Below are positions 30,622-31,777 of a stretch of 31,777 bases of DNA, one piece after another. Numbering within the stretch: the first letter of the stretch is position 1; every line of letters starts with the position of its first letter. Source of the DNA: Gemmatimonadota bacterium. Its GTDB lineage: Bacteria; JBHIER01; G020348925. Below the pieces are notes generated by a model. That model was not told the origin of the DNA, did no database searches, and saw only the letters and a list, made by a program, of their open reading frames with translations. The stretch spans positions 473,333 to 505,109 of the forward strand of contig CP070758.1 of NCBI GenBank assembly GCA_020348925.1, read 5' to 3'. The position numbers were made by a program, and so were the translations under genes.

Positions 30622-30649
30622 TTGACACAAAATTGTAAAAGGATATATT
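30622..30649 (+). promoter_or_regulatory. Sigma-70 promoter of a candidate small RNA
   Basis: TTGACA (30622-30627) and TATATT (30644-30649) are separated by 16 bases. The predicted start is near 30656, directly at a 19-base repeat motif. No protein gene follows. Confidence 0.6.
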
Positions 30650-30655
30650 TAATCA

Positions 30656-30754
30656 TTGCGATGACAGAAAGGCGGATTTTTTTTTGCACACACCCCAGTT
30701 ACAAATCTTATGAATTACCGTTCTTCTGTTGTCGGAGACTTGTAAGATTGAACT
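30656..30754 (+). ncRNA. Candidate plus-strand small RNA (~100 nt)
   Basis: A promoter at 30622-30649 and a strong terminator ending at 30754 delimit a transcript of about 100 nt. Its 5' end reads TGCGATGACAGAAAGGCGG, then nine U, then the large terminator hairpin. A 45-codon frame from 30661 crosses the terminator and looks non-coding. I recognise no known RNA family. It could also be the leader of a longer, attenuated transcript, but nothing coding is seen downstream on this strand until 31432. Confidence 0.45.
30694..30754 (+). terminator. Rho-independent terminator of the plus-strand candidate RNA
   Basis: CCCAGTT (30694-30700) pairs with AACTGGG (30741-30747), and AATCTTA with TAAGATT inside it, giving 14 base pairs with a small internal loop. 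Seven T follow directly. The hairpin top is large, with about 30 bases. Confidence 0.7.
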
Positions 30755-30894
30755 GGGTTTTTTTCTGTGCGCGGGAACACCTTACGAAGAAATCATAGAC
30801 GCCTTCCATTGTCATGAATTAATGGGAGAACGGTCTGAGACCATCTCTCCAATGTGTCGATGAACCAACGTATTGGTTATTTAAAAAAAAGCAG
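30755..30894. other. Non-coding spacer with two small hairpins
   Basis: Between the two candidate RNA terminators I see CCATT/AATGG (30806-30825) and a two-part stem GGAGA-GGTC / GACC-TCTCC (30825-30850). They show local RNA structure but no known family, and no credible ORF is present. Confidence 0.4.
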
Positions 30895-30925: not shown

Positions 30926-31090
30926 CGAATAACTTCTCTATGAATTTTTACAATGCGATGACAAACAGACAGAATGTATCGTCTGCACAATATTCTTCCC
31001 CAGTCGATGGCCTGCTCATGGACCGCCTGTCTGTCATCGCACGCAACAGAGGCATGGGTGGCCGTCGGCTGGGACCACATAGAATGTGTA
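30895..31090 (-). ncRNA. Candidate sigma-54-dependent structured small RNA (~195 nt)
   Basis: A sigma-54 promoter and a strong terminator bound this transcript. It can fold into three elements: a 5' hairpin GUGGUC/GGCCAC (31078-31058), a long hairpin closed by UGCGAUGACA/UGUCAUCGCA (31041-30954, further paired by GACAG/CUGUC), and the terminator. Frames on this strand (for example one starting MWSQPTATHASVACDD) have no known motif or ribosome site. The long rod shape and length recall 6S RNA, but I see none of its conserved sequence, so I leave the family open. Confidence 0.5.
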
Positions 31091-31289: not shown

Positions 31290-31366
31290 AACGATAAAGG
31301 TAAACCTCGAGTGATCGGGGGACACAAAGCAAACGGATCTCAAAGAGATGGCCGGGCTGCCGAAGT
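31290..31366 (+). promoter_or_regulatory. Class I cyclic-di-GMP riboswitch (GEMM-I)
   Basis: The aptamer core matches GEMM-I: ACGATAAAGGTAAACC, a CCTCGA/TCGGGG stem with a GTGA (GNRA) tetraloop at 31305-31320, then GGACACAAAGC, a short ATCTC/GAGAT stem, and GGCCGGGCTGCCGAAG. Aligned to the Vibrio Vc2 aptamer from memory, G20 is kept (31299), as are C46 (31325) and A47 (31326). Retaining G20 favours c-di-GMP over cGAMP. It lies in the leader of the secreted-protein gene at 31432. Confidence 0.88.
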
Positions 31367-31397
31367 CCGAAGGTAGGTAAGGGAGCTCGGTCTTTTT
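31350..31397 (+). terminator. Riboswitch-controlled terminator overlapping the aptamer
   Basis: The 3' aptamer strand GGCCGGGCT (31350-31358) can pair with AGCTCGGTC (31384-31392), a nine-pair stem with two G-U pairs, followed by five T. A CTGCC/GGTAG stem can form inside it. Aptamer and terminator are thus mutually exclusive, which predicts that ligand binding allows read-through (an ON switch). Confidence 0.65.
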
Positions 31398-31431
31398 ATT
31401 TGAAATTTTTAACAAACAAGGAGGTTCTTTC

Positions 31432-31777
31432 ATGAAACGAGTGGTAGGATGTGTTGGAGTCATTTCCCTCCTGGTGACAGTTTTAAGCGCCAGTGTAAGC
31501 CGTGCCCAGACCGCACCCACGGTCAACGGTCTCTTCTACGGCGACGGAGACACACTCAACTACTATCTCCTCGCCGAGGAAATCGACGGTCGCGGTTCCC
31601 TCTACTACAACCTTGTGGGAGATACCCTCTACATTGCCATGGTCGTGGACGCCACAGTCAATGACAATGTCTTCGGGACGAAAACATTGGACGACTCCTA
31701 TATGCTGAGTGCCAATTGGTCCGCTATCCATTTTGCCGATCGCTTGATCGGCTCCGACAACATGGAATTTGTGCTGA
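31432..31777 (+). CDS. Secreted protein under c-di-GMP riboswitch control (3' end outside window)
   Basis: The gene begins with ATG 31432 after an AAGGAGG site and continues past the window edge; 115 codons are visible. The N-terminus is a clear signal peptide (VGCVGVISLLVTVLSASVSRAQ). The next segment (NGLFYGDGDTLNYYLLAEE, then SLYYNLVGDTLYIAMVVD, then DDSYMLSANWSAIHFADRLI) alternates short polar and aromatic strands like a beta-sandwich. I do not recognise the family. Cyclic-di-GMP usually promotes attachment and matrix production, so an adhesin or matrix protein is a reasonable inference; the missing C-terminus may carry a sorting domain as in neighbours. Confidence 0.88.
   Translation, partial: MKRVVGCVGVISLLVTVLSASVSRAQTAPTVNGLFYGDGDTLNYYLLAEEIDGRGSLYYNLVGDTLYIAMVVDATVNDNVFGTKTLDDSYMLSANWSAIHFADRLIGSDNMEFVL

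Follow-up and report, generated by a model that had tools for sequence, protein, structure and literature searches.

An undescribed terminator-bearing RNA recurrently precedes predicted c-di-GMP-I riboswitches in a Gemmatimonadota genome

The closest described system is the pilM riboswitch of Geobacter metallireducens, an ON switch of the GEMM-I fold in which ligand prevents termination. The 3' strand of its aptamer, including the C that pairs with the ligand, is recruited into an overlapping intrinsic terminator, and pairing of this base (C75) in the terminator abolishes binding (PMC9262584). pilM senses cGAMP. A Geobacter cGAMP riboswitch becomes selective for c-di-GMP by an A-to-G change at nucleotide 20, and the synthases of cGAMP, the Hypr enzymes, are marked by a Ser (PMC6456294). 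c-di-GMP-I riboswitches are also found in heterologous tandems, the known partners being glycine and AdoCbl riboswitches, in which the c-di-GMP-I element is preceded by another RNA element that has a terminator of its own (PMC9481103).

The locus described here resembles both arrangements. It lies in a window, by which we mean the whole stretch of 31,777 nt that was analysed (bases 473333-505109 of a 5.04 Mb single-contig genome). Its riboswitch differs from pilM in the base at position 20, which is the one for c-di-GMP, and in standing ahead of a gene for a secreted protein. Taken alone, this riboswitch is ordinary. The arrangement with a second RNA, here called element X, is not, and what is new is a c-di-GMP-I switch that is recurrently preceded by an undescribed terminator-bearing RNA. 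The features of the window are as follows.

30622-30649, + strand: sigma70-type promoter of X (TTGACA, 16-nt spacer, TATATT), 11 of 12 consensus bases.
30658-30764, + strand: element X, a conserved structured RNA of 107 nt, from pattern and model searches and folding.
30998-31077, - strand: dispersed repeat Y (about 80 nt), situated between X and the riboswitch; the genome has two further partial copies.
31290-31365, + strand: c-di-GMP-I (GEMM-I) riboswitch aptamer, from RF03167 (59.5 bits), RF01051 (56.1 bits) and alignment.
31350-31397, + strand: alternative intrinsic terminator overlapping the aptamer 3' strand, from folding and duplex tests.
31419-31425, + strand: ribosome-binding site AAGGAGG, from sequence.
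31432-31777, + strand: 5' part (115 aa) of a secreted multidomain protein, MKRVVG...AQTAPTVNGLFYGDGD..., from the open reading frame, paralogs and homologs.

Infernal (cmscan) finds a single Rfam family match in the window, at 31290-31365 (+). The top-scoring family is RF03167 (c-di-GMP-I-GGC; 59.5 bits, E 8e-12), whose cut-off of 59 is exceeded by a marginal 0.5 bits; RF01051 (c-di-GMP-I) scores 56.1 bits against a gathering cut-off of 35, an excess of 21 bits. The initial annotation of this DNA had placed a c-di-GMP (GEMM-I) aptamer within 31290-31777 with its ligand-contact bases kept, and both points hold. The covariance scores are above threshold, and alignment to the covariance model puts G31299 directly before the first P2 pair, A31326 directly after the partner strand of P2, and C31360 next to the closing P1 pairs on their 5' side. 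By their position in the structure line we take these to be the Vc2 ligand contacts G20, A47 and C92, and all three are canonical (G/A/C). The aptamer also has a GUGA tetraloop on P2 and an extra A in P3, a combination common to one sister aptamer, L007.

The genome contains nine GEMM-I aptamers, that of the window and L001 to L008, and position 20 is G, not A, in every one. Given G31299 and the swap at nucleotide 20 in Geobacter (PMC6456294), the ligand of the window aptamer is predicted to be c-di-GMP. There are ten GGDEF domains in the genome, one degenerate and the other nine with the Asp of canonical cyclases; the Hypr Ser was present in none of the GGDEF cyclases read.

The 3' strand of the aptamer can alternatively form a terminator, as had also been recognised initially. 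Bases 31350-31358 pair with 31384-31392 (9 bp), and 31360-31361 extend this duplex by pairing with the GG at 31381-31383, so that C31360 is taken up. A U-run starts at 31393, and the sequence after the duplex is TTTTTATTT. The minimum-energy structure of the full leader includes the terminator, whose duplex is matched by 36 of 1000 dinucleotide shuffles, which is a modest result. Because the arrangement is that of pilM, we infer the same ON logic: with c-di-GMP bound, the aptamer would hold its own 3' strand including C31360, and without ligand this strand would pair with 31381-31392 to form the terminator, stopping transcription before the secreted-protein gene. Ligand is thus predicted to lower termination, and the ON switch proposed in the initial annotation gains support by homology with pilM. 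Overall, the window element has a genuine GEMM-I aptamer and is very probably a class I c-di-GMP riboswitch that acts as a transcriptional ON switch.

An overlapping terminator followed by a U-run is present in eight of the nine leaders of the genome, with the equivalent of C92 available for pairing. In the seven of these outside the window, between 0 and 22 of 1000 shuffles pair as well. The pairing is kept across the leaders although its downstream strand varies. The duplex test on the nine leaders gave no overlapping terminator for L008, which is also the only GEMM-I aptamer of the genome with a GGC-like G at model position 37. The sister aptamers and what lies downstream of them are listed here.

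L001 and L003: two pilin-like operons.
L002: TPR proteins, and further on a GGDEF protein.
L004: secreted protein or proteins with PKD domains.
L005: a further pilin-like gene.
L006: a paralog of the window protein.
L007: secreted protein or proteins with repeat and dockerin-like sequence.
L008 (G000:C1:526582-526659, - strand): a small membrane protein.

Most of the nine thus lie ahead of secreted or pilin-like genes, in agreement with the link from second messenger to secretome that had been proposed from the window alone.

Other readings of the aptamer and its terminator have to be weighed against this. The best-scoring family would file the aptamer with the c-di-GMP-I-GGC variants, which may sense a ligand other than c-di-GMP. 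The papers searched gave neither the meaning of 'GGC' nor the ligand of this class; from the model consensus, we take the name to refer to the G at model position 37. In the window this position is A31326, so the GGC feature is absent and the pocket, despite the RF03167 label, corresponds to an ordinary c-di-GMP-I aptamer. The RF03167 cut-off is also cleared by 0.5 bits as against 21 bits for RF01051, and within this genome only L008 carries the G. The filing as a GGC variant was rejected on these key bases, and we consider it highly unlikely. It is also conceivable that the aptamer senses cGAMP, like many Geobacter GEMM-Ib riboswitches, given that the closest architecture is found in Geobacter ON switches such as pilM. 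However, that class needs an A at position 20, where the window has G31299 and all nine aptamers have G, and the Hypr Ser is absent from the cyclases read; this candidate was rejected as extremely improbable. Finally, the terminator might be a chance pairing, with the element controlling translation or nothing. The shuffle rank of the window leader on its own would allow this, but the recurrence of the same terminator and U-run in eight of nine leaders argues against it, as does its rarity in other genomes: among 22 GEMM-I riboswitches of unrelated genomes, a comparable full-length significant duplex was found in one (L023; 0 of 300 shuffles). Chance pairing is therefore very improbable. The reading as a c-di-GMP-I riboswitch with an overlapping terminator is retained below.

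The initial annotation missed element X, 525 nt upstream of the aptamer, and c-di-GMP may not be the only input at the RNA level. A 26-base intergenic pattern has exactly two occurrences in the genome, each of them ahead of a sister riboswitch, and relaxed searches gave four copies of X, namely that of the window and those upstream of L007, L004 and L005. Their coordinates are as follows.

Window, 30658-30764, + strand.
L012, 9251-9358, - strand.
L014, 3599-3704, + strand.
L017, 6386-6496, + strand.

A model built from the four copies scores them at 90-110 bits in the whole genome, with the next best match at 20 bits; the four are the model's own training sequences, and the informative part is the absence of a fifth copy. 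Each of the four is followed on the same strand by a GEMM-I aptamer (four of the nine riboswitches in all), with gaps of about 126 nt (L004), 156 nt (L007), 195 nt (L005) and 525 nt (window). We estimate the probability of such placement at random to be of the order of 1e-13, a value that assumes independent positions and would be raised by common descent of whole leaders. The window and L007 leaders are clearly alignable only in X (with its promoter region) and in the aptamer.

X matches no Rfam family above the gathering cut-off. In 385 other genomes, from other phyla, the only matches scored about 25 bits (E 0.003-0.01) and none was convincing; mostly AT-rich and without the conserved motifs, they were judged to be chance. 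A gapped X pattern also fitted 27 viral contigs, which were rejected because none scored above 15 bits with the X model. Between X and the riboswitch, repeat Y (in its longer extent 30955-31077 on the - strand; other copies L105 and L106) contains GCGATGACAGACAGGCGG and has the 5' motif of X, scoring only 14 bits with the X model. It is probably not part of the switch.

The X RNA begins with GCGATGACAGA, and an invariant complementary TGTTGTCG follows about 65 nt later. Its 3' end is a terminator hairpin, with arms CCCAGTT/AACTGGG in the window, and then a U-run. The terminator covaries, in that the arms fit their own partners better than in the other 23 pairings (rank 1 of 24); covariation of the 5' helix is unsupported (rank 8 of 24). 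As long as the 3' arm of the terminator is missing, each of the four copies has the 5' helix as its minimum-energy fold. At full length the terminator is favoured by about 2.4 kcal/mol in the window copy and by about 5 kcal/mol in that of L014; the L012 and L017 copies favour the 5' helix. As modelled, this alternation looks like that of an attenuator, which X may be, the other option being a plain small RNA.

Each copy of X is preceded by a sigma70-type promoter, the end of which is 7-8 nt away (8 nt in the window). The four have 11, 10, 10 and 9 of 12 consensus bases, and 4, 48, 33 and 159 of 1000 shuffles are as good; the first values are those of the window, and the other three promoters have the same position and are individually weaker, that of L012 (159 of 1000) being no better than chance. 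A sigma54-like site stands 57-78 nt ahead of the aptamer in four of the leaders without X (L001, L002, L003 and L006), with 8-10 of 12 matches and 0 to 23 of 500 shuffles as good. An example of this motif is TGGCATTTTTTTCGCA, and RpoN is encoded in the genome. Within 130 nt of the aptamer, none of the four leaders with X shows a sigma70 match that exceeds chance, and all four lack the sigma54 motif. For the window aptamer, a search of the DNA just ahead of it gave no promoter above chance; a weak promoter-like site is present at 30947, between X and the aptamer. L008 has neither X nor a sigma54-like site.

The apparent exchange of X and the sigma54 sites between leaders suggests that the riboswitch mRNA is transcribed from the promoter of X. 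X neighbours the aptamer, and the promoter motifs are compatible with a single transcript. In the window and the three sister leaders, transcription would on balance start at the sigma70-type promoter before X, and X, itself ending in a terminator, would have to be passed before the aptamer, giving a two-step leader; in four of the remaining leaders, transcription seems to begin at sigma54-type sites near the aptamer. We give this co-transcription slightly better than an even chance, and any switching by X is likewise putative. The main competitor, which we rate at somewhat below even, is that X is an independent small RNA and that the riboswitch leaders use undetected promoters of their own. 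Such an RNA would be expected to have what X has, a full sigma70-like promoter and a terminator that covaries, and the 525 nt separating X from the aptamer in the window, with the promoter-like site at 30947 inside, are long for one leader and count against a tandem. On the other hand, a small RNA need not sit upstream of a GEMM-I aptamer on the same strand, as all four copies do, and the X leaders do not have the sigma54 motif that four leaders without X have. If co-transcribed, X would be a new tandem partner of c-di-GMP-I. It shares with the first elements of the glycine/c-di-GMP-I and AdoCbl/c-di-GMP-I tandems a terminator of its own ahead of the c-di-GMP-I element (PMC9481103), and differs from them in matching no Rfam family and in lying 126-525 nt upstream. 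It is a possible, if doubtful, further step that X represents a regulatory RNA of a new class, perhaps a riboswitch, alternating between 5' helix and terminator in series with the c-di-GMP-I ON switch.

The gene behind the riboswitch starts at ATG 31432, behind AAGGAGG, and encodes a signal-peptide-like N-terminus. It is cut by a 100-N assembly gap directly after the window, so that the 115 aa are only its 5' part. The product would be a large secreted protein, probably attached to the surface. It had been described as of no recognisable family. This stands for the N-terminal module, which no Pfam or NCBIfam model covers, but not for the protein as a whole: the genome encodes three paralogs, homologs occur at 18 loci in other phyla, and longer relatives carry GEVED, DUF11, cohesin and dockerin domains and C-terminal sorting tails. 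One paralog is a 1641-codon open frame with DUF11, cohesin-like and dockerin domains and no riboswitch upstream. The paralog behind the L006 leader has a GEVED domain and thrombospondin-type repeats and is frameshifted; the frameshift (G000:C1:2273483, L042) is near a run of G and is either an assembly error or a pseudogene mutation.

The 18 loci, ranging from Neomarinimicrobiota to Kiritimatiellae, Chloroflexota and Acidobacteria, share the N-terminal NGLFYGDGD module at 38-57% identity, and GEVED domains follow it in both homologs scanned. This unnamed module of about 240 aa, PTVNGLFYGDGD...HHSP, is widespread in secreted multidomain proteins of many phyla (L047-L063). One homolog, L048, which is labelled as a Thermoplasmatales archaeon, comes from a contig of 5 kb and is possibly misbinned. 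No riboswitch was found upstream of the homologous genes at the 17 loci searched in other phyla, and no plasmid homologs were found. AlphaFold2 modelled the module with a mean pLDDT of 61, and fold comparison gave only weak CBM9(-like) matches; with so weak a model, no fold is assigned to the module.

In this genome, then, a regulon of nine switches ties c-di-GMP to secreted and pilus-like proteins. Element X is a compact candidate for an undescribed leader RNA: each of its four copies is coupled to a c-di-GMP-I riboswitch, and X and sigma54 promoters seem to replace each other. If it does act in series with them, four surface-protein or pilin-like genes would obey two RNA-sensed signals.
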